Source: Desulfobacteraceae bacterium 4572_123
GTDB taxonomy: Bacteria; Desulfobacterota; Desulfobacteria; Desulfobacterales; 4572-123
Direction: 5' to 3'
Assembly: GCA_002084545.1 (NCBI GenBank)
Contig: NBLJ01000027.1
Coordinates: 1 to 48,773 of the forward strand
Length of the DNA stretch: 48,773 nt
The notes under the pieces were generated by a model. The model was given only the letters and a program-made list of their open reading frames with translations. It was not told where the DNA came from and did no database searches. Each line of letters begins with the position of its first letter. Within the stretch, counting starts at the first letter, position 1. Positions 20,347-36,313 of this stretch are shown here, in pieces. Made by a program: the position numbers and the translations under genes.

Positions 20347-20982
20347 TCAAAAGATGTGTTTTTTTATAAGCTCGGCAAAATGGTCAATATGGCGTTTCAT
20401 GATGTTTTTTGCTTCAGATGAATCGCCATTGCTCATGGCATTGTAAAGCAATTCCAGCTCTTCAAACTGTTCCTGGAATTCGCTAGCTGAAAAACCAACC
20501 TGGAACCAGTACATTGTCATCTTATCCAGAAGTGTTCTTATGATGTGAATAAGTTGATCATTTCCCGCGATGCTGTATATCATCTCGTGAATTTTCCCAT
20601 CGATTTCCGACATTGTTATCAGTGCCTCGGAATCGCTGGTATCAATATTTTCGGCATCCATCAAAAGTTGCCTGAATTCGTCAAGTTGGTTTGGTGCGAT
20701 ATTCCGGGTAGCCAGTTCGGCGGCAAGTCCTTCCAGCTCTTTCCGCAACTGTACTGTTTCGCGTAACATTTTCAGATCCATGCTGACGACTTTGGTTCCG
20801 AGTTTGGGAAGTATCTCTATCAGACCATCCCTCTGCAGCTCGTGAAATATTTCGCGTAAGGGAGTTCTTCCAATGCCGTACTCCCGCATCAACTCTTTCT
20901 CGTATAACTGCTGTCCGGCATGCAGGTCGTTTGTAATGATACGGCGCTTAAGGCTTTCGTAAATTTTTTGTTTAAATGTCAT
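20347..20982 (-). CDS. GntR-family transcriptional regulator, FadR/FCD subfamily
   Basis: A 211-residue regulator. The N-terminal winged helix (residues about 1-70) has the pattern GQQLYEKELMREYGIGRTPLREIFHELQRDGLIE, typical of GntR proteins. The C-terminal all-helical FCD domain (about 75-205) contains the Asp/His positions that often bind a metal and a carboxylate effector (DGKIHEMI and MKRHIDHFAELI). The start at 20982 is chosen because GGGA lies upstream at a usable distance. It is divergently oriented to the hut-like operon with 263 bp between them, so it is the likely regulator of that operon. The effector is unknown. Confidence 0.88.
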   Translation of the reverse strand: MTFKQKIYESLKRRIITNDLHAGQQLYEKELMREYGIGRTPLREIFHELQRDGLIEILPKLGTKVVSMDLKMLRETVQLRKELEGLAAELATRNIAPNQLDEFRQLLMDAENIDTSDSEALITMSEIDGKIHEMIYSIAGNDQLIHIIRTLLDKMTMYWFQVGFSASEFQEQFEELELLYNAMSNGDSSEAKNIMKRHIDHFAELIKKHIF

Positions 20983-21153
20983 GTGAATTGTTCCCATTGT
21001 CTGATTTTGCGCATTTAAAACTATGTGGATAGTATTTATAAAAGCGCATTGGCTCCTTTTAACACACGGTTGCTGATATATCCAGAGACACCATCGGAAA
21101 ATCCGTATTCACCGATCAGGCAGGATAAAATTAATTTTATTTATAAAAAAGGC

Positions 21154-21245: not shown

Positions 21246-21824
21246 ATGGAAAATAAAATCAAATCGTTTCTGCGGGTACTTGATGCCTCTGACAACTCCA
21301 CCGGCGGTGGTACAGCTTCGTGCGTGGCCGGCGCAATGGCGGCCGGGCTGATTGGCATGGTCGCCCGACTGTCCATGGGCAAAGACGGCCTGGAGCCGGC
21401 AGAGCACTATGAACAAATCGCGGTGCATGCCCAGAAATTGGCCCATGTACTGTTTGACGGAGGGCGGATCGACTCAGAAGCGTTCGCGGTCGTCAGTTCG
21501 GCCTATAAGATGCCCAAGAATACCCCGGAACAAAAGCAAGAAAGAATCGCGGCTATTCAAAAAGGGATGGAACATTGCGCTGAGGTACCGCTATCCAACG
21601 CCCGGTTATGTCGTGAAGTTTTGAGTTTAGCCGGCGAGTTGGCCCGAAATTTCAACACCAACGCAACCTCTGATCTTCAGTGTGCGCAATATCTGGCCAA
21701 AGCCGGTTTGTCCGGTTGCGCTGCAAATGTCCGTATCAATCTCCCCCACATAAAGGATAGGATGGTTGCCGAGAGAATTGAGGGGGAATTGGAGGCGGTA
21801 CTTTTAGAAACCGAAGCTGTCTGA
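21246..21824 (+). CDS. Formimidoyltetrahydrofolate cyclodeaminase-like protein
   Basis: A 192-residue helical protein of the FTCD_C (cyclodeaminase / methenyl-THF cyclohydrolase FchA) family. It has the N-terminal TGGGTASCVAGAMAAGLIGMVARLS motif region and the central VPLSNARLCREVL segment with the NTNATSDLQCA folate-site pattern. The reaction converts 5-formimino-THF to 5,10-methenyl-THF and ammonia. The ATG at 21246 follows AGGTG. A GTG at 21234 is an alternative. It is the first gene of the operon and is separate from the formimidoyltransferase, as is common in bacteria. This step feeds the carbon from the imidazole ring into the folate pool. Confidence 0.9.
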   Translation: MENKIKSFLRVLDASDNSTGGGTASCVAGAMAAGLIGMVARLSMGKDGLEPAEHYEQIAVHAQKLAHVLFDGGRIDSEAFAVVSSAYKMPKNTPEQKQERIAAIQKGMEHCAEVPLSNARLCREVLSLAGELARNFNTNATSDLQCAQYLAKAGLSGCAANVRINLPHIKDRMVAERIEGELEAVLLETEAV

Positions 21825-21840
21825 TCTAAGGAGAATAAAA

Positions 21841-22746
21841 ATGAAAGCCCTGATGTGTGTACCCAATATCAGTGAAGGGACTGATCTTTCGGTGGTTGAG
21901 CAGGTAGTGGATACCGTGAGAAACGCTCCGGGTGTAATGTTGCTGGATTATTCATCCGATGCGGATCACAATCGTTCGGTAATTTCCTATATCGGCCGGC
22001 CGGAATCAGTTGTAGAGGCTACCAAAAATTTGGCAAAAACCGCTTTGGACCGTATTGATATGACCGGACATAAAGGATCCCATCCCCGTCAAGGCGCCGT
22101 TGACGTGGTTCCCTTTATCCCGATTCGCGGTATCCCGGAGGAAGAGGCTGTGAAAATTGCCAGGGATTTTGGCCGTTATGTAGGCAAAGAACTTGAGGTG
22201 CCGGTATATTTTTACGAAGACGCCGCCACCCGACCCGAGCGACGAAATCTGGTCAAGGTGAGAAAAGGGCAATACGAAGCTCTGGCGGAAAAAATAAAGG
22301 ATCCCCAATGGGCACCGGATGAAGGCCCGGCTGAGTTTATCCCCAAAAGCGGCTCCATGCAGGTCTCCTCACGCTTTCCCCTTGTGGCATTGAACATCAA
22401 CCTGGCCACTGCCAATCTGGAAATCGCCCAGCGCATTGCCAAAAGCGTTCGCTTTATTAATGGCGGTTTCCGGTTTGTTCGAGCGATCGGGCTCTCCCTT
22501 GAGAAAGAGGGCCTGGTGCAGGTTTCAATGAATCTCGTTCAGTATGAAAAAACACCGATCCCCATGGTAATGGAGGCCGTCAAACGGGAAGCACAGAGTT
22601 ATGGTGTGAATGTAACGGGCAGTGAACTGGTGGGGCCCGTTCCTCTCGGGGCGATGGGGCAGGTGCTTTCCTATTACCTGCAGGCACACAATTTTTCCAT
22701 GGACCAGATCATTGAAAATTCATTGATCGGATGGTCAGGTGAGTAA
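21841..22746 (+). CDS. ftcD: Glutamate formimidoyltransferase
   Basis: A 301-residue protein equal to the N-terminal part of eukaryotic FTCD. It transfers the formimino group from N-formimino-L-glutamate to tetrahydrofolate and releases glutamate. Family motifs are present and look canonical: CVPNISEG, SDADHNRSV, HKGSHPRQGAVDVVPFIP with the catalytic His, ATRPERRNL, WAPDEGPAEF and VQVSMNLVQYEKTP. It starts 16 bp after the cyclodeaminase gene, behind an AAGGAGAA ribosome binding site. Unlike the neighbouring ring-processing enzymes, it shows no loss of key residues. This indicates that the pathway ends in formiminoglutamate or a close analogue. Confidence 0.93.
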   Translation: MKALMCVPNISEGTDLSVVEQVVDTVRNAPGVMLLDYSSDADHNRSVISYIGRPESVVEATKNLAKTALDRIDMTGHKGSHPRQGAVDVVPFIPIRGIPEEEAVKIARDFGRYVGKELEVPVYFYEDAATRPERRNLVKVRKGQYEALAEKIKDPQWAPDEGPAEFIPKSGSMQVSSRFPLVALNINLATANLEIAQRIAKSVRFINGGFRFVRAIGLSLEKEGLVQVSMNLVQYEKTPIPMVMEAVKREAQSYGVNVTGSELVGPVPLGAMGQVLSYYLQAHNFSMDQIIENSLIGWSGE

Positions 22747-22761
22747 AAAAGAGAGAAAGTC

Positions 22762-24015
22762 ATGAAATCCAAAGCGGAAACCTATATCGACGGCGCCCGG
22801 GAAATCATCACCTGCGATTCCATGCGGAGTGACGCACTGGGCCGAATTCCCAACGGGATTATAGCTATTGCGAATGGAGATATTCTCGCCGCCGGTCCCC
22901 CGGAAGAAGTGGCGAAAACCGCGGATCTGTCAAATGCCCGGCGCATTGATGCCGGCGGCAAAATCGTGGCACCGGGGTTTGTGGACTGTCATACGCATTT
23001 GGTATTCGGACGCTCAAGGGCCGAAGAGTATGCCCTGAAAATGACAAAGAGCGTGAGAGAAATTGAAGCCATGGGGATCGAAACCGGGATACCGGCCTCT
23101 ATCCGCATGACACGGGAGGAAAATGAAGAAAGCCTTTTCAACGATGCATTGGATCGCATCGGACGCATGCTTCGATATGGAACCACAACAGTAGAGAGCA
23201 AGAGCGGCTACGGAATTCGATTGGAAGACGAATTAAAGCAGTTGCGTGTAAACAGCAGGTTGGACTTGGACCAGCCTGTTGATGTGGTTTCCACGTTTTT
23301 AGGCGCACATGACTTTCCGCCGGAAATTGACCGCAATAACCCGAAAGATAGAAAAGCCTACATAAGAGAACTCACTGAAAAAATGATCCCCCGGGTAACT
23401 GAAGAAAAACTTGCTGAATTCTGCGATATCTACTGTGATACAGGCTATTATACCCGGGAGGAAGCACATAAAATACTTCGTGCCGGTATTGATCACGGAT
23501 TGCTCCCCAGAATTCATACCGACGCCTATGCAAATGTGGGCGGCAGTACCCTGGCGGCGGAACTTCCCGCGGTATCCGCCGACCATCTCAATTATACCAG
23601 TAAAACAGAGATGCATCTTTTAGCCGAAGCAGGAGTTGTGGGAGTTGTGCTGCCCGCACTTGATTTTGCCGTGGCCCATCCGGATCCATTCAACGCGCGG
23701 GCCATGCTGGAAGCTGGAATGACATTGGCCCTGGGTACGAATATTAACCCGGGAAACTGGACCGAATCGATGCAGATGGTCATGCAGCTCGCCTGTCGCA
23801 ACCATGGCATGTCTCCGGAAGAGGCCATGCTGGCGGCTACCACCGGTGCCGCAAAAGCGATCCGGAGAGAAGATCGGATTGGGCGCCTTGCGAAAGGGTA
23901 TTCCGCCGATATCCAGATCTGGGACCTTCCGAGTTTTGAAGACAGCATCTATCGTATTGGTAATAATGCGGTATGCATGGTGATAAAGAATGGAACGGTG
24001 GTTTTTCAAATCTAA
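22762..24015 (+). CDS. hutI: Imidazolonepropionase-like amidohydrolase
   Basis: A 417-residue metal-dependent amidohydrolase of the HutI type, which opens the imidazolone ring to give formiminoglutamate. The metal motif CHTHLVFG, SGYGIRLEDELK, FLGAHDFPPE, IHTDAYANVGGS and SADHLNYTS follow the family order. At the place of the conserved Asp metal ligand (TDxNPG in classical HutI) it has LGTNINPGN, so Asp is replaced by Asn. The LHADQ/E segment is also changed to IHTDAY. It starts 15 bp after ftcD. The family is certain. The altered ligand suggests a different substrate form or metal chemistry. Confidence 0.85.
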   Translation: MKSKAETYIDGAREIITCDSMRSDALGRIPNGIIAIANGDILAAGPPEEVAKTADLSNARRIDAGGKIVAPGFVDCHTHLVFGRSRAEEYALKMTKSVREIEAMGIETGIPASIRMTREENEESLFNDALDRIGRMLRYGTTTVESKSGYGIRLEDELKQLRVNSRLDLDQPVDVVSTFLGAHDFPPEIDRNNPKDRKAYIRELTEKMIPRVTEEKLAEFCDIYCDTGYYTREEAHKILRAGIDHGLLPRIHTDAYANVGGSTLAAELPAVSADHLNYTSKTEMHLLAEAGVVGVVLPALDFAVAHPDPFNARAMLEAGMTLALGTNINPGNWTESMQMVMQLACRNHGMSPEEAMLAATTGAAKAIRREDRIGRLAKGYSADIQIWDLPSFEDSIYRIGNNAVCMVIKNGTVVFQI

Positions 24016-24037
24016 ATTAGACAGGGAGAATATAACT

Positions 24038-25585
24038 ATGCCGGCAGTTGAAATTACCGGAAAGCGGTTGACGATAGAGGAAGTCGTCGCCGTGGCATAC
24101 GAGAAAAAAAGTGTTCAAGTCCTTTCCGATGAAACAAGAAAGCAGATGGAAACCACCCAGAAATGGCTTCAGAATGCCATTGAAAAGAAAGATGCTGTTT
24201 TTTACGGCATCAATACGGGATTTGGTTCCCATGCCAGTCAATCCATCAGTTCCGAGGATGCGGGCAAGCTTTCAAGAAATGTGATCCTCTCGGATGTTGC
24301 CGCGGTGGGAGAGCCCCTTGCCAAAGAGGTGGTCAGGGCCATGATGGTGATTCGGGCCAATACCATGGCAGGCGGCCCTTCGGCTATCCGTCCCATTGTG
24401 GTGGATACCCTGATTGAGATGCTCAACAAGGATGTGACCCCCTATGTCCCCAGGAAAGGATCCCTGGGTGCCAGCGGTGATCTGGTGCTTCTGGCGGCCA
24501 TCGCCGTTGTGGCGACATGCGATGCCGATGGAGGCGGGTACAGTGGAAAAGCCTGGTACAAAGGCGAACTTATGAGTGGTGACGAGGCCATGAAAAAGGC
24601 CGGGATTCCCCGTCTCAATCTCATCGCCAAAGAGGGCAATTCCATGATCAACGGAACCTCTTTCATGGCAGCCATGGGATGTCTGGCCATTGCAAAATGC
24701 GAAAGCCTTATCAAACACGCGGAGATTGCCGCGGCTCTGACCCTGGAGGCCATGCTTGCCGTTTCCTCGGCATTCCATCCGGCCATGCATGAGGCCTCGA
24801 ATCAGAAAGGTCAGGTTACAGTTGCCGGTAACCTCAGAAAGCTGTTCATGGGCAGCCGGCTGCTGGATTCCACTGATCGTGTTCAGGACGCCTACTCCTG
24901 CAGATGCATTCCCCAGGTACTGGGTCCGGTGAGAGATACTATCGAATTTGCCCGGGGGTACTTTCTAAGAACTCTGAATGCCGGTATTGATAATCCGCTG
25001 GTTTTCGAGTCGGATGGAGAAGAGCCGTTTTTTTGTATATCCGGTGGTAATTTCCATGGAGAGGGGCTGGCTTTTATGATGGATTTTCTTTCCATCGCCA
25101 TGTCGGAAATAGCCAATTTTTCCGACAGACGTTCCTTCAGCCTGCTTACTCCGGGACTCAACGCCGGTCTTCCTTCAATGCTCATTTCGGCAACCGGGCT
25201 CAATACCGGGTTGATGGTTGCCCAGTATGCTGCTGCGGCCCTTGTTTCGGATAATAAAACCCTGGCCCACCCGGACAGCGTGGATTCGGTACCTACCAGC
25301 GCCAATCAGGAAGATCACGTGAGCATGGGCGCCAACGGGGCCAGGCATCTGTGGGAGATCCTGGAAAACGTCACCCACGTGATCGCCGTTGAACTTCTCT
25401 GCGCCGCACAGGCCGTTGATTTTCGTAAAAATGGCTCCGAGCGCCTGGGGGCCGGAACCAAAATCGCGTATGAACTGATCAGGGAACAGGTTGCCTTTTT
25501 TGAGAATGACAAGGAACTGACGCCGGATATCGAAAATCTGGCCGCACTCATTAAAAGCGGTCGAATGATCGAAGCCATTAGCTGA
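24038..25585 (+). CDS. hutH: Histidine ammonia-lyase-like enzyme 1 (divergent)
   Basis: A 515-residue MIO-type lyase. The Ala145-Ser-Gly147 triad that cyclises to the MIO electrophile is intact in GSLGASGDL, as are FYGINTGFG, the VQDAYSCRC segment, GGNFHGEG and PTSANQEDHVSMG. The His of the classical LSHAAG motif, which lines the imidazole pocket, is Asp86 here (LSDVAAVG). The usual RPHxGQ motif reads ASNQKGQ. Start 24038 follows AGGGAGA. The gene lies between hutI and hutU. The changes suggest that the substrate is not plain histidine, or that this is a poorly known HAL clade. A second, more classical HutH is encoded at 44480. Confidence 0.82.
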   Translation: MPAVEITGKRLTIEEVVAVAYEKKSVQVLSDETRKQMETTQKWLQNAIEKKDAVFYGINTGFGSHASQSISSEDAGKLSRNVILSDVAAVGEPLAKEVVRAMMVIRANTMAGGPSAIRPIVVDTLIEMLNKDVTPYVPRKGSLGASGDLVLLAAIAVVATCDADGGGYSGKAWYKGELMSGDEAMKKAGIPRLNLIAKEGNSMINGTSFMAAMGCLAIAKCESLIKHAEIAAALTLEAMLAVSSAFHPAMHEASNQKGQVTVAGNLRKLFMGSRLLDSTDRVQDAYSCRCIPQVLGPVRDTIEFARGYFLRTLNAGIDNPLVFESDGEEPFFCISGGNFHGEGLAFMMDFLSIAMSEIANFSDRRSFSLLTPGLNAGLPSMLISATGLNTGLMVAQYAAAALVSDNKTLAHPDSVDSVPTSANQEDHVSMGANGARHLWEILENVTHVIAVELLCAAQAVDFRKNGSERLGAGTKIAYELIREQVAFFENDKELTPDIENLAALIKSGRMIEAIS

Positions 25586-25786
25586 ACAGCAAAAGACCGC
25601 TGCCGGATAAATCAATATGCGGTTATCCAGAAAGCCCAAGTACCGTTACAAACCGAATATCGGTAGGCCGTTTCAAATAGGGAACTTGAGCTTCATAAAT
25701 AACCGTAAATCAATAAATAGCTTTAGAATCTAAAATCGCAAACCAAGGTTGATGTAATTCCAAAAACAGCAAGGAGGGAAAATATT

Positions 25787-27523
25787 ATGAAACCCGAAAT
25801 ATTATACGAAGTCAAGGCTCAGCGCGGCAATACCCTTCGCTGCAAGGGGTGGAAGCAGGAGACCATATTGAGAATGCTTGAAAACAATATGGAAAATGCC
25901 GAGGCACCGGAATACCTGGTCATTTACGGTGGTATCGGAAAATGTGCCAGAAACTGGGAATCCTATCACGCCATCGTGGACTCTTTGAAAAATCTTGAAA
26001 ATGATGAAACCCTGGTTATGCAGTCGGGCATGCCCGTGGCGATCTTTAAAACACACAAATTCGCCCCGACAGTGGTGATGGCAACCACCAATATCATGAA
26101 AGCGGACTGGCCTACCTTTTACGATTTGCAGGACAAAAACCTGACCATTTTTGCCCAGTACACGGCTGCTCCATGGGAATATATCGGTACCCAGGGCGTG
26201 ATTCAGGGGACCTTCGAGACCCTCGGCGCCATTGCCGATCGGCATTTCGACGGCTCCATGACCGGACGCATTCTGCTTACCGCCGGTCACGGAGGCATGG
26301 GGGCCAATCAGCCCCGTGCCATGAACATGCACGGGGGCGTGTGCATCGATGTGGATGTGCAGGAAGATATTATCGACAAGCGCATAAAAATCGGCTTTAC
26401 CGATGTTAAAGCCGGGAATCTGGACGAAGCCATTGAGATGGCTGAAAAGGCGGCATCGGAAGGTAAAAAACTGGCCATCGGTGTTGTGGGTAATGCGGCC
26501 ACACTTTTCTGGGAAGCCTATGACAAGGGGTTCGAACCGGATGTGGTTACCGAAATGTGCCCATGCCATGATCCGCTCTCATACATTCCCGAAGGCTACT
26601 CGGCCCAGGAAGCCGAAGAACTGCGTCTTAAAGATCGCGATCTTTATTTTCAGAAAGCTCGTGAATCGATGGTTAAACAACTGCGCGCAATGAATGCTTT
26701 TTCAAAAAAACCAAATGTCCATGTTTTTGAATACGGGACATCCATCCGAAAGGAGTGTCGGGATGCCGGTATGCCCGAAGAAGAGGCCATGATGATACCC
26801 GGATTTGTTGCCGAATATATCCGGCCGCTTTTCTGCGAAGGCCGCGGGCCGTTCCGCTGGACCTGTGTTTCGGGTGAAGCAGGCGATCTGGCGCGGCTGG
26901 ATGATCTGGTTCTTGAAATGTTTCCGGAAGACAAACTCACGGTTAAATGGATCAACCTTGCCCGTGAGAATCTACCCATCGAAGCACTTCCCGCCCGCGT
27001 CTGCTATCTGGGTTTCGGAGAAAGAAAAGCCTTTGCCCTGAAAGTCAATGAATTGATCAAAAAGGGTGAAATCAAAGGGCCGGTTGCATTTTCCCGGGAC
27101 AACCTGGATTCGGGTTCCATTGTCAATCCCACCTTCGAGTCTGAGAAAATGAAGGACGGCGGTGATCTGATTTCCGACTGGCCCATGCTGAACGCCCTTT
27201 TGAACTGTGCGGCCATGTGCGACCTCATTGCCATACAGGCCAATTACTCAATGGGCGAAGCGGTGCATACCGGTGTCACCATGATTGCCGACGGCAGCGA
27301 GGAAGCCGGCTTCAGACTGGAAGCCTCCATGACAACGGATTCGGGTATCGGCGTAGTCCGCCATGCCCAGGCCGGCTATGAAACGGCCCGCGAAGTGGCT
27401 GAAGGGCGCGGCAAACTCACCGGCGACAGCATCAAAATTCCGCTCTGGTGGAGCCCGAAGGCCACCTTCGGTCCTGAAGGCGGGCGTCAATTGCGCCGCG
27501 GATCTCACACAAAGGAAGACTGA
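25787..27523 (+). CDS. hutU: Urocanase-like hydratase (divergent)
   Basis: A 578-residue NAD-dependent hydratase of the urocanase family, which adds water across the urocanate side chain and ring to give imidazolonepropionate. The NAD-site motif GHGGMGANQPRAM, the N-terminal FYDLQDKNLTIFAQ and the C-terminal TTDSGIGVVRHAQAGYE are recognisable. The near-invariant HHGGGVGMGYS motif is replaced by IQANYSMGEAVH. TSAHDPL reads CPCHDPL, and GRDHLDCGS reads SRDNLDSGS. A 201-bp gap with no clear terminator precedes it, then an AAGGAGGG ribosome binding site. It belongs to the urocanase superfamily. Activity on a substituted urocanate is a reasonable alternative to plain urocanate. Confidence 0.82.
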   Translation: MKPEILYEVKAQRGNTLRCKGWKQETILRMLENNMENAEAPEYLVIYGGIGKCARNWESYHAIVDSLKNLENDETLVMQSGMPVAIFKTHKFAPTVVMATTNIMKADWPTFYDLQDKNLTIFAQYTAAPWEYIGTQGVIQGTFETLGAIADRHFDGSMTGRILLTAGHGGMGANQPRAMNMHGGVCIDVDVQEDIIDKRIKIGFTDVKAGNLDEAIEMAEKAASEGKKLAIGVVGNAATLFWEAYDKGFEPDVVTEMCPCHDPLSYIPEGYSAQEAEELRLKDRDLYFQKARESMVKQLRAMNAFSKKPNVHVFEYGTSIRKECRDAGMPEEEAMMIPGFVAEYIRPLFCEGRGPFRWTCVSGEAGDLARLDDLVLEMFPEDKLTVKWINLARENLPIEALPARVCYLGFGERKAFALKVNELIKKGEIKGPVAFSRDNLDSGSIVNPTFESEKMKDGGDLISDWPMLNALLNCAAMCDLIAIQANYSMGEAVHTGVTMIADGSEEAGFRLEASMTTDSGIGVVRHAQAGYETAREVAEGRGKLTGDSIKIPLWWSPKATFGPEGGRQLRRGSHTKED

Positions 27524-27548
27524 TAAAAGCGTATCAAGGAGAAAAATG

Positions 27549-28997
27549 ATGTCAAACAGCACACGACTTCGATTTTTGACTGAAAGCGAAATAAGCCTCA
27601 TGCATGATCGATGTTTCAAAATATTGACTGAAAAAGGGGTGCGGGTGGAATATGCCAAGGCATTGAAACTGCTTGAGAAGGCAGGGGCCATCGTGGACTG
27701 GGGCTCGGAAAATGTCCGGTTCCCCACAGCCCTCATCGAAGAAGCGCTTAAAACAGCCCCCAAATCGTTCACTGTCAAGGGCAGCCATGAAAAACATGAC
27801 CTTGCACTGCCGCATCCAGGCGGCTCATTTTATACCAGCACCTGTGTACAGAGCATGCAATACCATGATCCTGTAACCAACCGGTTTGAGGACGTGACTA
27901 CCGGGCGCATGGCTGAATGGAACCAGATTGCCGAGGTACTGCCCAATATTCATAAAGTAGCAATCCAGACACCCATGGATGTGCCGCGTGAGACGGCGGA
28001 TGTCCACGGCCTTAAAGTTCAGCTTGAGAATACGTCAAAACCCCTGATGATCCTGGCCTATTGCCCGGAAACCGTGGGATATATGTTTGAACTGATGCTG
28101 GCCAAGGCCGGCAGTGTTGAGACTTTGAGAGATCGGCCCATGGTGCTCACTTATCCCACATCGCTGTCTCCTCTGAAATTCAAACCCATGGACATGGAAA
28201 CTATTTTACAATCCTGTCATTACGGGGTGCCCATGGCGGTCAATTCCCTGGCCATTTCCGGTGCTACCGCACCGGTGACCCTTGCCGGAACCGCACTGTT
28301 GGCAAGCGTGGAGATACTGGCCATGGTAGTGATGGCCCAGATATTCAAACCCGGTATCCCGGTGGTTGCCTCTGTTTATACCACCACCATGGATATGGCC
28401 ACCGGGAATGCCCTTTTAGGGAATACGGAAAGCATGCTCAGCCGCGCGGCGGCCACTCAGTTCATCAAGGAATCGTTCAACCTGCCGGTGGAAACGTTTT
28501 CCTTTATGAGTGATTCGTACCTGTCAGACGGGCAGACCATGGTGGAAAAATCGCTCATGCCCGCGATGCTCGATCTGGCAGGCAGTGATATCCAGTATGG
28601 CTGCGGCCGTTTGGGCGGGCCTACCGCAGCCAGTCCGGTCCAGATGATCATCGATGACCAAATTTTTTCCATCATTGAAAAAAGCAATGGGAAGATACCT
28701 GTGAATGAAGACACCCTGGCTCTGGAAGAGATTCTTGAAAACGCACCGGACGGCGAGTTTGTCTCCACACAGCACACATTGAAATATTGTCGGGATAACA
28801 TCAGGCCCGATCTTTTTGTGGCCAATACCATGGACCAGTGGGAAGCAAAGGGCCGCAAGAGTCTTTATGAAAGGGCTGTGGAAAAATATAATGAGCTGAA
28901 GAAGAACCTTCAACCGCAGGTGCTTTCGGAAGAAGTCAAGCGGGAGATGGCCCGGATAGTTAAACATGCCGATGAAAAACTTGCCGGCAGACCGTGA
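27549..28997 (+). CDS. MttB-superfamily methyltransferase 1, non-pyrrolysine
   Basis: A 482-residue TIM-barrel protein of the trimethylamine methyltransferase (MttB) superfamily. It has LTESEISLMHDRCFKIL at the N-terminus, ISGATAPVTLAGTAL in the core and DDQIFSIIEK near the C-terminus. No in-frame amber codon interrupts it, so it lacks pyrrolysine. Characterised enzymes of this branch demethylate quaternary amines such as glycine betaine, proline betaine and carnitine, passing the methyl to a corrinoid protein. It starts 25 bp after hutU behind AAGGAGAA, with ATG at 27546 as an alternative start, so it shares the hut transcript. It is the most divergent of the four paralogues here. The substrate is unknown. 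Confidence 0.85.
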   Translation: MSNSTRLRFLTESEISLMHDRCFKILTEKGVRVEYAKALKLLEKAGAIVDWGSENVRFPTALIEEALKTAPKSFTVKGSHEKHDLALPHPGGSFYTSTCVQSMQYHDPVTNRFEDVTTGRMAEWNQIAEVLPNIHKVAIQTPMDVPRETADVHGLKVQLENTSKPLMILAYCPETVGYMFELMLAKAGSVETLRDRPMVLTYPTSLSPLKFKPMDMETILQSCHYGVPMAVNSLAISGATAPVTLAGTALLASVEILAMVVMAQIFKPGIPVVASVYTTTMDMATGNALLGNTESMLSRAAATQFIKESFNLPVETFSFMSDSYLSDGQTMVEKSLMPAMLDLAGSDIQYGCGRLGGPTAASPVQMIIDDQIFSIIEKSNGKIPVNEDTLALEEILENAPDGEFVSTQHTLKYCRDNIRPDLFVANTMDQWEAKGRKSLYERAVEKYNELKKNLQPQVLSEEVKREMARIVKHADEKLAGRP

Positions 28998-29016
28998 AGA
29001 TAAGGAGAAACCAGAT

Positions 29017-30387
29017 ATGAAAACCGGATTCAAGTCCCAGTGTGTTCCGGAGTACCGTCTTCTGACGGAGGAGCAGATCAAGGAGATCCATCGGGCCACA
29101 CTCAGGCTTCTCGAAACCACGGGCGTAAAGATCATGCATGACGGCGCTCTTGATATGCTTAAAGCTGCCGGATGCGGCATTCGGGAAAACCTTGAAGGGC
29201 GTAATGTATATTACGGTCTGGGCACGGATCTTCTCCAGACATGGGACATAAAAACAGGAGAATTGAGAAAATCATGTCTCCAGGATGTCATCAATTCGGC
29301 AATCGTTGGTGATTATTGCAAGAATATCGATTTTATTGCATCCAACGCCTTTCCCCTCGATGTCCCCGGAAACATGGCGTTTATCATTGAAATTAAAGAG
29401 TTGATGACGCATTCACCAAAACCCATCTATTGCACGGCCGGAGGCCCCGATGACCTGAAGGTTATCCTTGATATTGCCGCTACCGTTAAAGGCGGGGCGG
29501 ACCGGTTAAAGGAGAAGCCCTTTATCATCCATTATGCCGAACCTATCAGCCCGCTGCTTCACTCTTCCGGTGCCGTGGAAAAGCTGCTGATGTGTGCCAA
29601 AGCAGGGGTCCCCCTCAATTATGTTCCGGCACTTCTTTCCGGAGGCAGTGGTCCGGTTACTCTGGCCGGCGCCATTATTACCGCCAATGCCGAAGCCCTG
29701 AGCGGGCTGGTAATGCAGCAACTGCATGCGAAAGGATCACCGGCGGTCACCGGATTCAGTGCTACCCCCATGGATCTTCGTACCGGGACAACCGTGTACG
29801 CCGGTCCGGATGAACGGCTGACACATTCGGCCTGCTGCGATCTGTATCACTGGTATGGGCTTCCCGTATGGGGCGAGGCAGGTTGCAGCGACTCCAAAAG
29901 TCTTGACGAACAGGCCGCCATGGAGTCGATGGCTTCCATCATGATGGCGGCACTGGACGGATGTAATCTGGTTCATGACGTCGGTTACCTGGGACAGGGG
30001 CTCATCGGCTCACCGGCTTCCATTGTCATGTGCGATGAGATCATCAGCTATGTCAAGCGCATCATGAGAGGATTTGATATCTCTCCCGAGCACCTGGGAC
30101 TGGATGTCATCGACGAGATCGGACCCGGCGGCAATTTTCTCTCTCATGAACATACCCTGAAACATTTTAAGGAAGAGCACTGGGTGCCGAAACAGATTAA
30201 TCGCCAAAATCCGGAAACCTGGCTGCAGAAGGGCGGTGAGCGGTACAGCGAGACCGTCATTAACAAAACGCTTGATATTCTTGAAAGGCATAAGCCGGAT
30301 AAACTCACCAAAGAGATGGAGAATAAACTGGATGAAATTATCCACAAGGCCGAAAAGGGATTGTCTGAAAAGCTGTTATCCGTTTAA
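29017..30387 (+). CDS. MttB-superfamily methyltransferase 2, non-pyrrolysine, with internal gap
   Basis: A 456-residue MttB homologue. Its start TGFKSQCVPEYRLLT is nearly the same as that of the paralogue encoded at 39338-40813, which allows a direct comparison. After about residue 50 this copy passes from GIREN straight to LEGRNVYYG, missing about 32 residues that the paralogue has (from IVRIPNYLVEE to MGEEAML) without a change of frame. The core LLSGGSGPVTLAGAI and the C-terminal IGPGGNFLSHEHT are intact. No amber codon is present. Start 29017 follows AAGGAGAAA, 19 bp after the previous gene. It may still fold, since the gap is in an N-terminal outer segment, but activity is uncertain. Confidence 0.82.
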   Translation: MKTGFKSQCVPEYRLLTEEQIKEIHRATLRLLETTGVKIMHDGALDMLKAAGCGIRENLEGRNVYYGLGTDLLQTWDIKTGELRKSCLQDVINSAIVGDYCKNIDFIASNAFPLDVPGNMAFIIEIKELMTHSPKPIYCTAGGPDDLKVILDIAATVKGGADRLKEKPFIIHYAEPISPLLHSSGAVEKLLMCAKAGVPLNYVPALLSGGSGPVTLAGAIITANAEALSGLVMQQLHAKGSPAVTGFSATPMDLRTGTTVYAGPDERLTHSACCDLYHWYGLPVWGEAGCSDSKSLDEQAAMESMASIMMAALDGCNLVHDVGYLGQGLIGSPASIVMCDEIISYVKRIMRGFDISPEHLGLDVIDEIGPGGNFLSHEHTLKHFKEEHWVPKQINRQNPETWLQKGGERYSETVINKTLDILERHKPDKLTKEMENKLDEIIHKAEKGLSEKLLSV

Positions 30388-30417
30388 CCCGTATCTATCC
30401 GGAAATAGGAGGATTTT

Positions 30418-31890
30418 GTGGTTGAATTGAACTTGAAAGTACTCGGGGATCGGAAGATTGAGAAGATCCATCGCACCACCTTGAAGGTACTGGAAGATAC
30501 CGGGGTAAAGGTTTGCCTGCCCCGGGCGGTTGAAATGCTGAAAAAAGCCGGTGCCAAGGTGGGAAAATCGGATCAGGTGCATATTCCGGCAAAACTGGTG
30601 GAAAATGCCGTTGCCGCGTCTCCGAAATCCATGACGATTTTTAATCGAAATGGCGAGGAGGCCATGTGCCTGGAGGATGACCGCACCTATTACGGCACAG
30701 GCCCTACCGTGCCAATGGTGCTGGACCCCTTCAGTGGTGAGCGCCGTGAAAGCTGCCGGGGCGACATCGAAAAAGCAGCACTGCTCTGTGATGCCCTGAA
30801 AAATATTGATTATGTGATGAGCATGGGACTCAGCGGCGGCAGCGATCCCAGGCGCCATGGACTGCATCCGGAGTTTACCGACCGGTTGGACTTTGAGGCC
30901 ATGCTGCGTCATACCGTAAAGCCGATTATTTTTTCGGCCTGGTCCCTGCAGGGCCTGCGGGACATTTATGACATGGCCGCGGTAGTGGCCGGTGGAAATC
31001 AATCCCTGGCCGCCAGGCCGTCGGCCATACATTATGCCGAGCCCACCTCGCCTTTGGTGCACAGCCCCGCTTCTCTGGAAAAGCTGCTTTTTTGCGCGGA
31101 CAAACGTATGCCGTTTTTGTACATGGGCGGCCCCCTGGCCGGAGGCACCGCACCGGTTACCCTGGCCGGCCAACTGGTGCTGTCCAATGCTGAATGCTTA
31201 AGCGGCCTGGTGCTGCACCAGCTTTGCTCTCCGGGGGCGCCTTTTATCTATGGTGTGGGCAGCAACCCCATGGACATGCGCACTACTCTGGCTGCCTACT
31301 GCGGCCCTGACGCTTACCTTAGTTGTATCGCCGGCAAAGAACTGTCGGATTATTACGGGCTGCCGGATTTCAATTTCGGGGGAGTGAGTGACTCCAATGC
31401 CATGGACGGGCAGATGACCTGGGAGGCCGGCTTTTCTCTTCTGCAGGCCGAACTTTGCGGCAGTAATCTGGTCCATGATGTGGGCTATTTAGAGTCGGGT
31501 ATGACCGCCTGCCTCGAGTTGATTGTCTTTTGCGATGAAGTAATCGACGAATTACGTCATTTTAAAAACGGCCTTACGGTAAACGAAGACCATCTTGCCG
31601 CCGAGGTTATCGACCAGATCGGTCCAGGTGGCTCCTACCTGGGGCATGACCATACCTTTAAACATTTTCGGGAAATCTGGTATCCTGCTTTGCGCAATCG
31701 GGATCGCTTTGAGAACTGGCAAAAAGCCGGCGGGTTAAGTCTGGAGAAAAAACTTAACGCCAGAGTGCGCCATATTCTGGAAACTCATCATCCCGAGCCC
31801 CTGTCGCCCGGGAGTGAATCCAAAATAAAAGCGATTATGCAAAAAGCTGCCGAAAGATACGGCCGGCCCGGACATAGGAGTCAGGCATGA
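30418..31890 (+). CDS. MttB-superfamily methyltransferase 3, non-pyrrolysine
   Basis: A 490-residue, full-length MttB homologue. Landmarks are KIEKIHRTTLKVLEDTGVKV, AAVEASPKS-like AAS PKSMTIFNRNGEEAM, PLAGGTAPVTLAGQL, SDSNAMDGQMTWE and IGPGGSYLGHDHT. There is no internal amber codon, so no pyrrolysine. It starts with GTG at 30418 after an AGGAGG site. Its stop overlaps the next start (ATGA), which suggests translational coupling to the MmgE/PrpD gene. As with its neighbours, a quaternary amine substrate and transfer to a corrinoid protein are expected from the family. The corrinoid protein encoded at 42442-43074 is the only candidate in the window. Confidence 0.87.
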   Translation: MVELNLKVLGDRKIEKIHRTTLKVLEDTGVKVCLPRAVEMLKKAGAKVGKSDQVHIPAKLVENAVAASPKSMTIFNRNGEEAMCLEDDRTYYGTGPTVPMVLDPFSGERRESCRGDIEKAALLCDALKNIDYVMSMGLSGGSDPRRHGLHPEFTDRLDFEAMLRHTVKPIIFSAWSLQGLRDIYDMAAVVAGGNQSLAARPSAIHYAEPTSPLVHSPASLEKLLFCADKRMPFLYMGGPLAGGTAPVTLAGQLVLSNAECLSGLVLHQLCSPGAPFIYGVGSNPMDMRTTLAAYCGPDAYLSCIAGKELSDYYGLPDFNFGGVSDSNAMDGQMTWEAGFSLLQAELCGSNLVHDVGYLESGMTACLELIVFCDEVIDELRHFKNGLTVNEDHLAAEVIDQIGPGGSYLGHDHTFKHFREIWYPALRNRDRFENWQKAGGLSLEKKLNARVRHILETHHPEPLSPGSESKIKAIMQKAAERYGRPGHRSQA

Positions 31891-33233
31891 ACGGAAATCA
31901 GATAGCAGCTCGTTTTATCAAGGAAACCACCTGGAAAAAGCTGCCTTCAGCAGTGCGTCAAAAGGCAAAAACCTGCCTTCTGGACAACTTGGGTTGTATG
32001 ATTGCCGGCAGCAGGAGCATTATCACCGGTATTTGCCGCGATTATGCAGACACTGTCTGGCCCCGGGGGGACGAGGCTGCCATGGTGATGCAAAACCGTA
32101 AATCCAGCCTCCTTGGAGCGGCTTTTGTCAATGCCAACACGGCCAACGCGACGGATATGGATGACGACGGTCTTTACTGCGACGGTCATCCGGGAGCCCA
32201 GCTGGTTCCGGTCACCCTGGCCCTGGCCGAGAAGTACCGTCTCAGCGGCATGGAACTGCTGAGTGCCCTGGTGGTGGGCTATGAGGTGGCTCACCGTGCC
32301 GGGGGATGCTGGCACGATTATCATGAGGTTTATCAGGCGTGCGGATCCTGGGGCTCCATGGCCAATGCTGCGGTGGCGGCCAGGGTGATGGGGCTGGATG
32401 AAAATCAGATACAGCACACCCTTGGCATCGCAGAGTATCACGCAGGCAATCTGCCCATGATGCGGGATATCGACCATCCAGCCATGGTTAAACACGGCCT
32501 GGGCTGGGCCGCAATTACCGGGATGATGGCAGCCGGATTAGCCGCCAAAGGGTTTACCGGCATTCCCAGTCTGCTTGGTTTTGAGAAATACCGGCACTGG
32601 TCGGAAAGTTTCGGACGGGAGTACATCATGGTGCGCGGGGTGAGTTTTAAACGCTATTCTTCCTGCCTGTGGAGCCATCCGGCCGTTGTGGCCTGCCGGG
32701 ATGTGATTTCGGCAAATAACCTGGCTCTGGACCGGATCGAAAAAATTGTGGTACACGGCTTTCACGAGATGAAGCGGCTTGGAGACCGCCTCCCACGCAC
32801 AGAGGAAGAGGCAGTATTCAATGTAGCCTGGCCCCTGGCGGTTTATCTTTTAAATGGTGAGATCGAACCTCACCACATGCTGCATGGGAACCTTTCTGAT
32901 GAGGGCACCATGGCAATGGCCCGGAAGATTAAAGTTGTTGAATCGGATGAGATCAACCAGGCCCACCGCCCGGACAGTTACCCGTGCCGGGTGGAGATAT
33001 TCCTGTCGGACGGGCAATGTCTGGATTCGGGCCTTGTCCATTATGAACACAGCAGCACCGGTGATACGGAAACATCTTGTGGTGACTACACGCGCCATGA
33101 AGATGTTGCCGCCAAATTTTTACACATTACCGGGCCGGTAATCGGCAGCCGGTCCGGTCAAAAGCTTCTGGAGACGGTGGAAAATCTGGACCATCTGGAT
33201 GATCTGTCTCCTTTCATAGCCCTATGGTCATGA
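31887..33233 (+). CDS. MmgE/PrpD family protein
   Basis: A 448-residue protein of the MmgE/PrpD family, all-helical domain plus lid. It has VGYEVAHRAG, GSWGSMANAAVAARVMGL, KHGLGWAAITGMMAAGLAAKGFTG and a C-terminal SDGQ segment. Family members include 2-methylcitrate dehydratase, aconitate decarboxylase and iminodisuccinate epimerase, so the chemistry is dehydration, decarboxylation or epimerisation of small carboxylates. Here it is translationally coupled to an mttB gene at the end of the hut-like operon, not near a methylcitrate cycle. The role in this pathway is unknown. Epimerisation or water elimination on an amino-acid derivative is a guess. Confidence 0.85.
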   Translation: MNGNQIAARFIKETTWKKLPSAVRQKAKTCLLDNLGCMIAGSRSIITGICRDYADTVWPRGDEAAMVMQNRKSSLLGAAFVNANTANATDMDDDGLYCDGHPGAQLVPVTLALAEKYRLSGMELLSALVVGYEVAHRAGGCWHDYHEVYQACGSWGSMANAAVAARVMGLDENQIQHTLGIAEYHAGNLPMMRDIDHPAMVKHGLGWAAITGMMAAGLAAKGFTGIPSLLGFEKYRHWSESFGREYIMVRGVSFKRYSSCLWSHPAVVACRDVISANNLALDRIEKIVVHGFHEMKRLGDRLPRTEEEAVFNVAWPLAVYLLNGEIEPHHMLHGNLSDEGTMAMARKIKVVESDEINQAHRPDSYPCRVEIFLSDGQCLDSGLVHYEHSSTGDTETSCGDYTRHEDVAAKFLHITGPVIGSRSGQKLLETVENLDHLDDLSPFIALWS

Positions 33234-33464
33234 TTTATAGATGCATTAGAGCAGGCGTTTTACGACCTGCTTGAAGCCGGCAGTATCAAAGGGGCGGGCT
33301 TTGACCTGCTGCAGGAAGATTCACCCATTATCAAGTCGGACAAGGTGATTTTATCTCCCGGTGTGGCCTGGCTAACCGAGGAATGCCTGGAACGGTTGTT
33401 TGATACTGTTTACAATAATGTAAAAAGCTGTGTGGATGGAGCTCCGGTTAATACGGTGATCTGA
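33234..33464 (+). pseudogene. C-terminal fragment of a D-2-hydroxyacid dehydrogenase
   Basis: Directly after the MmgE/PrpD stop codon, a frame without a start codon spells 76 residues. They look like the last part of a D-isomer-specific 2-hydroxyacid dehydrogenase (glycerate/hydroxypyruvate reductase type): ALEQAFYDLLEAGSIKGAGFD, then KVILSPGVAW, LTEECLERLFDTVYNNV and DGAPVN. The catalytic His in the usual PHxAW motif is Val here (PGVAW). The nucleotide-binding domain and substrate domain are absent. It is a remnant, not a working gene, and suggests that a dehydrogenase once followed prpD. Confidence 0.7.
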
Positions 33465-33478: not shown

Positions 33479-34357
33479 TTACCCTCTTGCCAGTCGATCT
33501 TCAAGCTTCTGGATCAGGACGGAGCAGGGCAGGGTGAGCATGAGGTACATGACGGTCACCGTTATCCATATTTCCATGGTGAGCAGGGTCCCGGTCATCA
33601 GTTCATTGGCCCTGAAAGAGAGTTCTGGTATGGAAATAACCGAAACAATGGAGGAGTCCTTGATCAGGGAGATGAACTGGCCCGCCAGGGGCGGTAGAAT
33701 ACGCTGGAAAGCCTGTGGGAGGATGATGTATCTCATCTGCTGGTATTTTGTCATGCCCAGGGAGTGGGCCGCTTCCCACTGGCCTTTCCGAATGGACTGG
33801 ATCCCGGCTCTGACGATTTCAGTGATATAGGCACCCTCGAAAATTGCCAGGGTAAACAGGGCGGACAGAAAGGTCGTGAGGTGCTCCGGGGGGGCCAGGC
33901 AGAAGGTCACAATGGATACCAGGAGGTTGTCCCTGCCCTGGAGTGCATCGCCTATGCCGCTGTATGGCAAAAGGTTGTTTCCGATGAAAAAATATACGAT
34001 AAATATGATTACCAGCGGCGGCAGGTTGCGCATGGTTTCAACATATGTTCCGCTGACCAGCCTGAGGAACACCACCTTGGAGGAGCGGCAGATCCCCATG
34101 ATCGTACCTATAATAACGGCCAGAATGGTGCCGAAGATACTGAGACGGATGGTGTTGAAAAGGCCCCACATCAATACATTGGAGACCCATTTCCCGCTTT
34201 CCTCATCAAAGCGGTACAGGAATTGAGGGATTTGCCCCCAGTTCCACTTGTAGTTAAGTCCGATTTCCACCCGGTAATAGATGACCACGCCGATGAGCAG
34301 GAAAATGGCACCCACGATAATGTCTGATTTTTTTAATGGTATATTTTTTTTGTACAT
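33479..34357 (-). CDS. Polar amino-acid ABC transporter permease
   Basis: A 292-residue inner-membrane protein of the HisM/GlnP family with a leading span and the usual five-span core. The conserved EAA-type loop is seen in ITEIVRAGIQSIRKGQWEAAHSLGMTKYQQMRYIILPQAF, which contacts the ATPase. Start 34357 follows AGGAAG and is preferred over an upstream ATG. It is the last gene of the minus-strand operon and lies behind a hairpin. The two permeases of this system would form a heterodimer. Substrate cannot be read from the permease. Confidence 0.88.
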   Translation of the reverse strand: MYKKNIPLKKSDIIVGAIFLLIGVVIYYRVEIGLNYKWNWGQIPQFLYRFDEESGKWVSNVLMWGLFNTIRLSIFGTILAVIIGTIMGICRSSKVVFLRLVSGTYVETMRNLPPLVIIFIVYFFIGNNLLPYSGIGDALQGRDNLLVSIVTFCLAPPEHLTTFLSALFTLAIFEGAYITEIVRAGIQSIRKGQWEAAHSLGMTKYQQMRYIILPQAFQRILPPLAGQFISLIKDSSIVSVISIPELSFRANELMTGTLLTMEIWITVTVMYLMLTLPCSVLIQKLEDRLARG

Positions 34358-34384
34358 GGAACTTCCTGAAGCTTGCTTACAAAA

Positions 34385-34424
34385 GTGTAATGATGCCGGC
34401 ATAACCTGCCGGCACCATTACACA
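34385..34424 (-). other. Hairpin between binding-protein and permease genes
   Basis: A long inverted repeat, GTGTAATG with GCCGGC facing GCCGGC with CATTACAC, lies in the 83-bp gap between the binding-protein stop and the permease start. Such structures behind a binding-protein gene often protect the upstream message and reduce readthrough. On the minus strand it is not followed by a T-run. Confidence 0.65.
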
Positions 34425-34440
34425 TTTTTTATCTGGAATT

Positions 34441-35289
34441 TTATTGAAGCAGTGCTTCCCATTCCAGGCTCTTCCACCAGTAGTCGACCTTCTTTTGGAT
34501 GAAACCGTTGTTACGCACAACGGTAATCCAGTTGTTCAGATAAAACAGCGTATCCGGATCGCCCTTGGGGACGCCCATGCAGATAGGCTGCTGCTCGAGA
34601 TTTTTGTCCAGAAACATCAGAGTATCGGGATATTTGGCAGCCAACTGGGCCGGCTGGGGAGCTGTACCCAGAAAAGCCGTTGCCTTGGCGTTCAGGAGTT
34701 CCTGAATCATGGGGCCTTCGTCGGGGAACAGTCTCACTTTGGCATTTTTGTAGGTTTCCTTGGCCAGCGCAGCGCCGGTGGTGCCCAACCGTGCAATAAT
34801 GGTGTTGCCTTTTTTGTCCAGATCCATATAGTCGGAGACTCCCGCTGCAAAATCTTTGTGAACCACGATATTCATGCCTGCGTAATCGTAGGGAGTCGTG
34901 AAGTTGATTTTCAAGGCCCGCTGGGGCGTTCCGGTCATACCGGCGATAATCAGGTCAAATTTGTTCGTCAACAGCGATGGGATGAGGCCTTCCCACTTGG
35001 TGGGTACAAATTCAATCTTGACCCCCATGTCTTTGGCCAGTTGTTTGGCGACATCGATTTCGAATCCGACCCATTCACCCTTTTTGTCCTGCATGGCCCA
35101 GGGCACGAATGAGGATAGGCCGATTCGCAGCGTCCCTTTGCGCATCACCTTGTCGATAATACTGGATTTAGCGAGTTGTTTATTGATGTCATCGGCAGAC
35201 ACAGGCCCAGCAAGGCAGAACATCAGCGTCATCAAAACAGCCGTTGTAATCGCCAACACACGTCTTTTCCCCGTCATCTTTTTTTTCAT
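34441..35289 (-). CDS. Periplasmic amino-acid-binding protein of an ABC transporter
   Basis: A 282-residue family 3 solute-binding protein. An N-terminal signal peptide with basic start, hydrophobic core and a likely cut after VSA (residue 32) sends it to the periplasm. The mature part follows the pattern of glutamine/histidine/lysine-binding proteins: LRIGLSSFVPWAMQDKKGEW, GFEIDVAKQLAKDMGVK, WEGLIPSLLTNKFDLIIAGM, and the ligand-contact region TPQRALKINFTTPYDYAG. Its start follows AGGAG. Its position in an operon with mttB, mtmB and hut-linked control suggests a histidine derivative or betaine as ligand. This is inference and needs a binding assay. Confidence 0.9.
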   Translation of the reverse strand: MKKKMTGKRRVLAITTAVLMTLMFCLAGPVSADDINKQLAKSSIIDKVMRKGTLRIGLSSFVPWAMQDKKGEWVGFEIDVAKQLAKDMGVKIEFVPTKWEGLIPSLLTNKFDLIIAGMTGTPQRALKINFTTPYDYAGMNIVVHKDFAAGVSDYMDLDKKGNTIIARLGTTGAALAKETYKNAKVRLFPDEGPMIQELLNAKATAFLGTAPQPAQLAAKYPDTLMFLDKNLEQQPICMGVPKGDPDTLFYLNNWITVVRNNGFIQKKVDYWWKSLEWEALLQ

Positions 35290-35474
35290 TTTCTTTGTCT
35301 CCTTTGTTGTGGGTGATAGTTTGGAAAATTGCTCCCGGTTTCCGCTTTTCTATGGTGAGCGTGCTGATTCCCAGAGAGCCGTTCCTGAAAAAGCGTTGAT
35401 TTGTTTTTTCCTTTCCGTCCGGCCCCGCGAGAAACAATTCGTCCTGTGTTACGACAAGCAGCGGGGAGTTTGTA

Positions 35475-36227
35475 TTAAAGGATTTGGCTGAGAAAAAGTT
35501 TTGTACGATCTTCTTTCGGACTGGTAAAAAAGTGATCCGCCGTGCCTTCCTCCACCTTCATGCCATCCTCCATGAAAATAACCCAGTCACTGACTTCCTT
35601 GGCAAACCCCATTTCGTGGGTAACGACGACCATGGTCATACCCTCGACAGCCAAATTTTTCATCACCTCAAGAACTTCTCCGATCATCTCCGGGTCCAGG
35701 GCACTGGTTGCCTCATCGAACATCATGACTTTCGGGTTCAGCGCCAGCGCTCTGGCAATGGCCACCCGCTGCTGCTGTCCGCCGCTGAGCTGGCTTGGAA
35801 AGCTGGCGGCTTTATCTGCTATGTTCACCTTGTTCAGCAGGTGCATGGCCTCCTCTTCGGCTTCACGCCTGGATCGCTTGCGTACGAGCATCTGTGCTAT
35901 CGTGATGTTTCTAAGAACCGTCAGGTGCGGGAAGAGATTGAAGTGCTGAAACACCATGCCCACTTCCCTTCGAATTTCCAGGCGGTTTTTTTTATCGTCG
36001 TCAAGCGGAATACCGTCAATGGTGATCGATCCTGAATCGATCTCCTCCAGCCCGTTCAGACATCGCAGGAATGTCGATTTCCCGGAACCGGACGGCCCGA
36101 TGAGGACCACAACTTCACTACGGCGAATGTCGGTGGAAAAATTCTTCAATGCCACCACACCGTTGGAAAAAGTTTTGCCGATGCGGTCAACATGGATAAT
36201 ATCATCCCCAAATTGTTTGGCGCTCAT
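35475..36227 (-). CDS. Polar amino-acid ABC transporter ATP-binding protein
   Basis: A 250-residue ATPase with Walker [11 protein letters not shown]-loop [13 protein letters not shown], signature [15 protein letters not shown], Walker [14 protein letters not shown] and the switch His in VTHEMGFA. It energises uptake through the two permeases. Start 36227 follows GAGGT, while upstream ATG codons have no ribosome binding site. The gene lies after one permease gene and before the binding-protein gene. Confidence 0.92.
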
Positions 36228-36313
36228 TCGGTTACCTCGATTTTTAATAAAATCGCCGTGCGATTTGTTTGGAATCAACTCCGTCTGCATTTTAAGAGCA
36301 GCGGTGAGCAATG

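Follow-up and report, generated by a model that had tools for sequence, protein, structure and literature searches.

Characterised non-pyrrolysine proteins of the MttB superfamily act on quaternary amines (PMC12155760). Among systems for modified histidines, histidine ammonia-lyase (HAL) acts on N-tau-methylhistidine, as reported in PMC11432326, and ergothionase works without the 4-methylideneimidazole-5-one (MIO) cofactor (PMC13405746). The metallopterin ergothioneine synthase is a relative of acetylene hydratase, and its sulfur transfer is reversible (PMC9516567). In gut ergothioneine catabolism, a molybdenum enzyme cleaves the C-S bond reductively (PMC12771579). Here we describe an operon of the sulfate-reducing Desulfobacteraceae bacterium 4572_123 in which genes for altered enzymes of histidine utilization (Hut) are followed by non-pyrrolysine mttB genes, and which may serve the catabolism of a histidine modified on its imidazole ring. 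It lies on contig NBLJ01000027.1, which was analysed at its full length of 48.8 kb (the window) and comes from a 3.18-Mb assembly that is 88% complete.

To our knowledge, no substrate has been assigned to most MttB superfamily members or to many altered urocanases, and we know of no characterised member of the superfamily that is linked to hut genes. A conserved tie of one MttB protein to one altered Hut set narrows the substrate search to histidine derivatives. Functional assignments throughout rest on sequence comparison, and the roles given to residues of HutU, HutI and the substrate-binding protein (SBP) partly follow published structures.

Results

A second, specialised hut operon

Pfam and NCBIfam profiles identified an operon on the plus strand from 21246 to 33233, encoding in order FTCD_C, FtcD, HutI, HAL2, HutU, three MttB proteins and an MmgE/PrpD protein (Table 1). 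A sequence-only reading of the window had listed these nine genes with the same families, order and strand. The short gaps, the ATGA overlap and the largest gap of 201 bp without a terminator that it had noted were also recovered with refined starts, placed beside Shine-Dalgarno-like sequences (ATG 27546 for MttB1 and ATG 29017 for MttB2). From 5' to 3', the gaps were 16, 15, 22, 201, about 22, about 19, 30 and -4 bp, the last being the 4-bp ATGA overlap at the mttB3-mmgE/prpD junction. A consensus scan of the 201-bp gap upstream of hutU found no terminator-like site on the plus strand. Its mttB genes were non-pyrrolysine as proposed: all scored above the PF06253 cut-off, and the three frames were open throughout with no in-frame TAG. 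The interval of 21246-33464 was right as to the operon but not as to its end, as the last 231 bp are a short orphan frame (33234-33464) directly after mmgE/prpD. The end of this frame resembles by eye the C-terminus of D-2-hydroxyacid dehydrogenases, and it had no Pfam match.

The urocanase, designated HutU2, passed the cut-off for canonical urocanases (TIGR01228, 633.5 against 375 bits). Its scores with the NCBIfam models for S-methyl thiourocanate and thiourocanate hydratases were below their cut-offs (652.7 and 601.7 against 880 and 930). Thirty-six clade-specific changes were found, each at a site at least 90% conserved among 58 other urocanases. They included Arg450 to Phe, His439 to Asn (RDHLD to RDNLD), DQTSA to EMCPC and HGGG to QANY. 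The altered sites were otherwise invariant from short to long urocanases, and the main signature residues were identical in every HutU2 sequence covering them. Position 450 is hydrophobic in 7ned too, and differs between 8q9u and 8q9v.

HutU2 was 32% identical to the long-form HutU of the same genome and 42-47% identical to canonical short forms. In the tree it was sister to 7ned and 8q9v with a support of 0.93, these being the only two such sequences available. Both are, we presume, thiourocanate-type hydratases, in agreement with the NCBIfam names matched by HutU2. Looser phylum-wide HutU matches (42-47% identity) were rejected as members of the family; they are canonical short urocanases, and the ones checked keep the canonical residues.

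HAL2 retained the MIO triad (A142, S143 and G144), together with Y53, N195, Y280, R283 and E414, the residues holding the alpha-amine and the carboxylate. At position 83, on the other hand, five loci had Asp and one (G697) had Cys, while all 33 other lyases compared had His. H83 faces the imidazole ring, and its contact with the substrate is discussed in PMC11432326. HAL2 was present in six HutU2 loci with its catalytic residues conserved. Given the intact MIO triad, HAL2 was rejected as a plain ergothionase. Matches to HAL2 of 34-47% identity (Paenibacillus, Thorarchaeota, Clostridia and others) were rejected as pathway relatives, as they have His83 and no mttB.

The imidazolonepropionase-like protein, HutI2, was aligned with 2bb0. 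Its catalytic or metal Asp (324 in B. subtilis) was Asn in all seven clade members covering the site, and in the HADE motif Ala had replaced Glu/Gln. Measured against 23 canonical FtcD proteins, FtcD had only two clade-specific changes at conserved positions, both conservative. Both HutI2 and FtcD scored above their family cut-offs. The stems were 0.98 (HutU2), 0.68 (HutI2), 0.56 (HAL2) and 0.32 (FtcD) substitutions per site, a ranking that is only suggestive because rates differ between families and the support of the HutI2 node is low (0.31).

Canonical copies were found elsewhere in the genome: long-form hutU, hutI and a fused ftcD-cyclodeaminase gene on one contig (C25) and hutH on another (C31). 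Together with the unique changes in the ring-acting enzymes, this supported a pathway other than plain histidine degradation. By sequence comparison, the operon is not an ordinary hut operon but a specialised set that exists beside the canonical one.

Recurrence in Desulfobacterales

Two loci came from a HAL2 scan (L064, Desulfobacula sp., and L065, a deltaproteobacterium) and nine from a genome search. G720 and G709 share their gene order with L064 and L065, and each pair was counted once. Among 389 Desulfobacterales genomes, HutU2 was found in 10, the source and nine others (78-91% identity), and nine of the ten carry another urocanase besides. MttB1 was found in five genomes of the order, all HutU2 carriers (hypergeometric 3.5e-9, assuming independent genomes, yet these are related). 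In the four cases in which the contig continued, from four genera, mttB1 lay immediately behind hutU. The Hut-MttB association is thus supported as conserved and specific.

G709 has a Mo protein gene and an mttB gene divergent from gntR(FCD)-FTCD_C-ftcD-hutI-HAL2-hutU-mttB1-ABC; the orders in G685 and G736 are hutU-mttB1-Mo protein-ABC and hutU-mttB1-ABC. In G614 the locus is divided between two contigs, with the left half on the first and mttB1-ABC on the second; each breaks off at the hutU/mttB1 side. Three loci are mttB-free: G697, compact and with no additional enzyme (permease-hutU-FTCD_C-ftcD-hutI-HAL2), and G623 and G663, with hutU-hutI-ftcD-FTCD_C sets. The G623 locus (L099, 1671-9022) has no HAL gene and lies beside genes for a tripartite ATP-independent periplasmic (TRAP) transporter, an aconitase X-type dehydratase and a LarA-like racemase.

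The sequence-only reading had asked for a search of other genomes for the gene order, and had held that mttB beside hut genes only in this genome would speak against it; this was not the case. Its joint unit of all three mttB genes and the mmgE/prpD gene was sustained in part. Of the mttB genes, conservation at other loci was limited to mttB1 and an mttB2-like gene, and neither MttB3 nor the MmgE/PrpD gene was seen in the remaining HutU2 loci compared.

Methyltransferases and neighbouring genes

MttB2 lacked about 33 residues in frame compared with its L065 ortholog and with MttB4, and given this deletion it may be inactive. The best PDB match of MttB4 was 2qne, followed by the glycine betaine methyltransferase 9yce. 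Across the whole genome, about 25-30 mttB genes or fragments were counted, some of them containing an in-frame TAG. Those with a single in-frame TAG, on contigs C150, C100, C129 and C144, likely encode pyrrolysine-containing proteins, and fit the description of marine Deltaproteobacteria using pyrrolysine (PMC8318568).

The sequence-only reading had stopped short of MttB4, the MtmB homolog, the corrinoid protein, the ATP-binding cassette (ABC) transporter and the Mo/W protein (33479-43116), as well as the HutC-like regulator and HAL1. The corrinoid protein that it had supposed for methyl transfer is encoded here, in the window itself (Table 1). The frame of the MtmB homolog was open without TAG, and the active-site pyrrolysine of MtmB was absent. 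Genes of the corrinoid-activase family were present in the source genome, and no MtrH-type methyltransferase was found in it. One candidate for methyl transfer from corrinoid to tetrahydrofolate (THF) is the Pterin_bind protein at 10520-11455.

The ABC transporter is linked to MttB1 in G685, G709, G736 and G614. In an alignment, its SBP lacked the Asp that binds the alpha-ammonium group (GRADAMVTD to AKATAFLGT). Mo protein genes adjoin mttB in G685, G709 and G614. The equivalent of Asp13 of acetylene hydratase was conserved in the Mo proteins of the window and G685, and was Ala in G614. Formate dehydrogenase was rejected for the window protein, with a score of 334.1 against the Fdh-alpha cut-off of 666.25, and with the metal Cys followed by Tyr or Phe and not His. 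Compared with metallopterin ergothioneine synthase, it has no fused cysteine desulfurase domain and was not assigned to that family.

Upstream of the operon, the gene for carbon monoxide dehydrogenase (CODH; Prismane) at 15265-17276 on the minus strand appeared as two overlapping frames matching different parts of PF03063, a frameshift that is real or assembly-derived. A gene for a cold-shock domain protein (PF00313), at 19978-20180 on the minus strand, separates the CODH cluster from the gntR gene.

Table 1. Features of the window and the matches on which they were assigned
Feature	Position	Strand	Basis
Wood-Ljungdahl CODH/acetyl-CoA synthase (ACS) cluster	9813..18849	-	Pfam CdhC, CdhD, Prismane, Pterin_bind
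GntR/FCD regulator, divergent from operon	20347..20997	-	Pfam FCD and GntR; same-place ortholog in L065/G709 and G614
FTCD_C, formimino-THF cyclodeaminase / methenyl-THF cyclohydrolase-like	21246..21824	+	PF04961, 168.7 bits
FtcD, glutamate formimidoyltransferase	21841..22746	+	TIGR02024, 415.9 bits (cut-off 221.25)
HutI2, imidazolonepropionase-like	22762..24015	+	TIGR01224, 370.9 bits; N327, HADE to HTDA
HAL2, MIO-type histidine ammonia-lyase	24038..25585	+	NF006871, 566.6 bits; His83 to Asp (P. putida numbering)
HutU2, divergent urocanase	25787..27523	+	Best NCBIfam model S-methyl thiourocanate hydratase, 652.7; hutU, 633.5
MttB1, non-pyrrolysine MttB superfamily	27546..28997	+	PF06253; Met at pyrrolysine position (alignment to 7xcl)
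MttB2, non-pyrrolysine MttB	29017..30387	+	PF06253; 68% identity to L065 ortholog
MttB3, non-pyrrolysine MttB	30418..31890	+	PF06253, 275.5 bits
MmgE/PrpD family protein	31887..33233	+	PF03972 and PF19305; overlaps mttB3 by 4 bp
Polar amino acid-type ABC transporter	33479..37132	-	Permease 33479-34402, SBP 34441-35289, ATPase 35475-36311, permease 36314-37132
Mo/W-bis(molybdopterin guanine dinucleotide) protein, dimethyl sulfoxide (DMSO) reductase family, 705 aa	37205..39322	-	Best solved match acetylene hydratase
MttB4, non-pyrrolysine MttB	39338..40834	-	PF06253, 334 bits
MtmB homolog without pyrrolysine	41021..42403	-	PF05369, 307 bits; Val aligned to pyrrolysine of MtmB 1l2q
MtxC, cognate corrinoid protein (MtbC/MtgC-like)	42442..43116	-	NF041607, 193 bits; TIGR02370, 190.9 bits
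HutC-like GntR/UTRA regulator	43336..44073	-	TIGR02018, 125 bits
HAL1, canonical-looking histidine ammonia-lyase	44432..46033	+	NF006871, 682.7 bits; His83 kept

Discussion

A possible route for a ring-modified histidine

Once HAL has acted, the alpha-amine is gone; the changes in HutU and HutI therefore cannot be explained by a modification of that amine alone. That HAL2, HutU2 and HutI2 are all altered suggests instead a modification of the imidazole ring, which probably persists until the ring is opened. FtcD transfers the formimino group, so C2 should bear a hydrogen by that step. A ring-N-methyl histidine satisfies both without a further enzyme and therefore fits the compact G697 locus, whose set suits an N-methyl but not a 2-thio group. 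We tentatively favour, at somewhat short of an even chance, an operon devoted to the breakdown of a histidine whose imidazole ring is modified, most likely by N-methylation, with a corrinoid branch salvaging the methyl group. The sequences themselves show the gene content and its conservation, the altered residues, the tie to MttB1 and the presence of canonical hut genes at other sites of the genome. The ring location, the N-methyl nature and the step of MttB1 action are what we infer rather than read from the sequence.

After uptake of the substrate, HAL2 would take off the alpha-amino group, and HutU2 would hydrate the modified urocanate that results. HutI2 would open the ring, yielding formiminoglutamate or its N-methyl form, and FtcD and FTCD_C would deliver the ring carbon as methenyl-THF. 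MttB1 (with MttB2 and MttB4, and perhaps the MtmB homolog) would methylate the corrinoid protein, from which the methyl group would pass to THF and the adjoining Wood-Ljungdahl pathway. The CODH/ACS cluster is a possible sink for both methyl- and methenyl-THF. The proposal of a corrinoid system for a ring-modified histidine or ergothioneine, joined to a specialised Hut set, with ring and methyl carbons both entering THF and the Wood-Ljungdahl pathway, we judge as evenly balanced.

Several points weigh against the ring-N-methyl explanation. The characterised substrates of non-pyrrolysine MttB proteins are quaternary amines (PMC12155760); an SBP without the alpha-ammonium Asp is unexpected if the substrate is an amino acid whose amine is free; and the Mo/W protein has no part in the scheme. 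The unchanged FtcD would need to take an N-methylated substrate, and HutU2 clusters with thiourocanate hydratases, though only two of these sequences were available. The MttB1 ortholog is absent from five of the ten HutU2 genomes, and the compared genomes are mostly fragmented assemblies. Demethylation thus looks like an add-on to the core pathway, and the mttB-free HutU2 loci call for a weaker claim than that the altered urocanase proves an MttB-linked methylated substrate.

The serious, and main, rival is anaerobic catabolism of ergothioneine (or 2-thiohistidine), which we consider unlikely. The MttB proteins would strip the methyl groups from the alpha-amine, HAL2 would give thiourocanate, HutU2 would hydrate it, and the Mo/W protein would desulfurise reductively before HutI2 and FtcD. 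This would account for the placing of HutU2 beside 7ned and 8q9v (0.93; presumably of the thiourocanate type) and for its best NCBIfam model. An SBP without the alpha-ammonium Asp would suit a betaine. As a quaternary amine with a carboxylate, ergothioneine also resembles MttB substrates (PMC12155760). The best solved match of the Mo/W protein, acetylene hydratase, is related to the ergothioneine synthase with reversible sulfur transfer (PMC9516567), and in gut catabolism a Mo enzyme is known to break a C-S bond reductively (PMC12771579). However, no such Mo protein was found near the mttB-free HutU2 loci of G697, G623 and G663, and the Asp13 equivalent kept in the window and G685 is Ala in G614. 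HAL2 has MIO and ergothionase does not (PMC13405746), so the alpha-methyls must leave first; likewise, C2 must be desulfurised before FtcD, which requires C2-H.

Hercynine (alpha-N-trimethylhistidine), demethylated by the MttB proteins to histidine for the normal Hut route, is a quite improbable substrate. Its quaternary amine and carboxylate suit MttB (PMC12155760), several mttB genes could serve several methyls, and the SBP again agrees. But its demethylated product is plain histidine, already served by the canonical enzymes of the genome. The changes in HAL2, HutU2 and HutI2 would be left unexplained, and the same HutU2 occurs without MttB1. Of the methylated-histidine catabolism proposed by the sequence-only reading, the Hut-MttB link stood, with MttB1 only in HutU2 genomes, while hercynine as sole substrate did not, as its alpha-amine methyls are lost at the HAL step. 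A merely divergent second operon for ordinary histidine, with mttB adjacent by chance, is very unlikely. The abundance of mttB genes or fragments (about 25-30) and the above-cut-off scores of HutI2 and FtcD would agree with it. It is opposed by the restriction of MttB1 to HutU2 genomes and its place directly after hutU in four genera, by the swapping of urocanase-invariant sites for the same residues across the whole HutU2 clade, and by the canonical hut copies. The true substrate could also be a ring-modified acid of the urocanate or imidazole-lactate type, with the HAL step optional, as the HAL-free G623 locus (HutU2, HutI2, FtcD and FTCD_C, with TRAP transporter, dehydratase and racemase genes adjacent), the SBP and the dehydratase-family MmgE/PrpD gene of the window operon might indicate. 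In G623 itself, an alternative entry via a hydroxy acid is possible. Against this account, which we hold to be highly improbable, stand the conserved catalytic residues of HAL2 in six loci.

The recurrence in nine other genomes points to an undescribed anaerobic use of chemically modified histidine. If a corrinoid system for a ring-modified histidine or ergothioneine is indeed at work, MttB1 would be without precedent in the MttB superfamily in using a substrate derived from histidine. Histidines carrying methyl or thiol groups (from muscle, anserine, ergothioneine) would then have a further route of anaerobic breakdown, and sulfate reducers a one-carbon source.

Comparison with known systems

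The window operon is like the canonical Hut pathway that ends in FtcD and cyclodeaminase in its five enzyme families, its chemical order and its near-canonical FtcD. It differs in the changes of HAL2, HutU2 and HutI2 at otherwise invariant sites, in coexisting with canonical copies, and in the linked mttB genes. With the non-pyrrolysine MttB superfamily (MtgB, MtpB, MtcB, MtyB and MthB; PMC12155760), the window MttB proteins share family, length, lack of pyrrolysine and a nearby corrinoid protein. Of the solved structures, the trimethylamine MttB 7xcl is nearer to MttB1 than the glycine betaine enzyme 9yce is.

Ergothioneine catabolism (ergothionase, thiourocanate hydratase and the gut thiourocanate desulfhydrase) resembles the window in the grouping of HutU2 with 7ned and 8q9v and in the precedent of Mo-dependent C-S cleavage. 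On the other hand, the operon has no ergothionase-type lyase, has an FtcD branch and contains MttB. The Mo protein of the window belongs to the DMSO reductase family, and the gut ergothioneine enzyme to the xanthine oxidase family.

The window MtmB homolog, like MtqB, a non-pyrrolysine MtmB homolog (PMC13044021), has no pyrrolysine, and it adjoins an MtbC-like corrinoid protein. We found no other characterised relative of this type than MtqB, which is archaeal, whereas the window protein is bacterial and encoded beside Hut genes. The degradation of N-tau-methylhistidine (Beliaeva, Atac and Seebeck 2022, as cited in PMC11432326) shares with our proposal the action of HAL on a ring-methylated histidine, and the window pathway may overlap with it.

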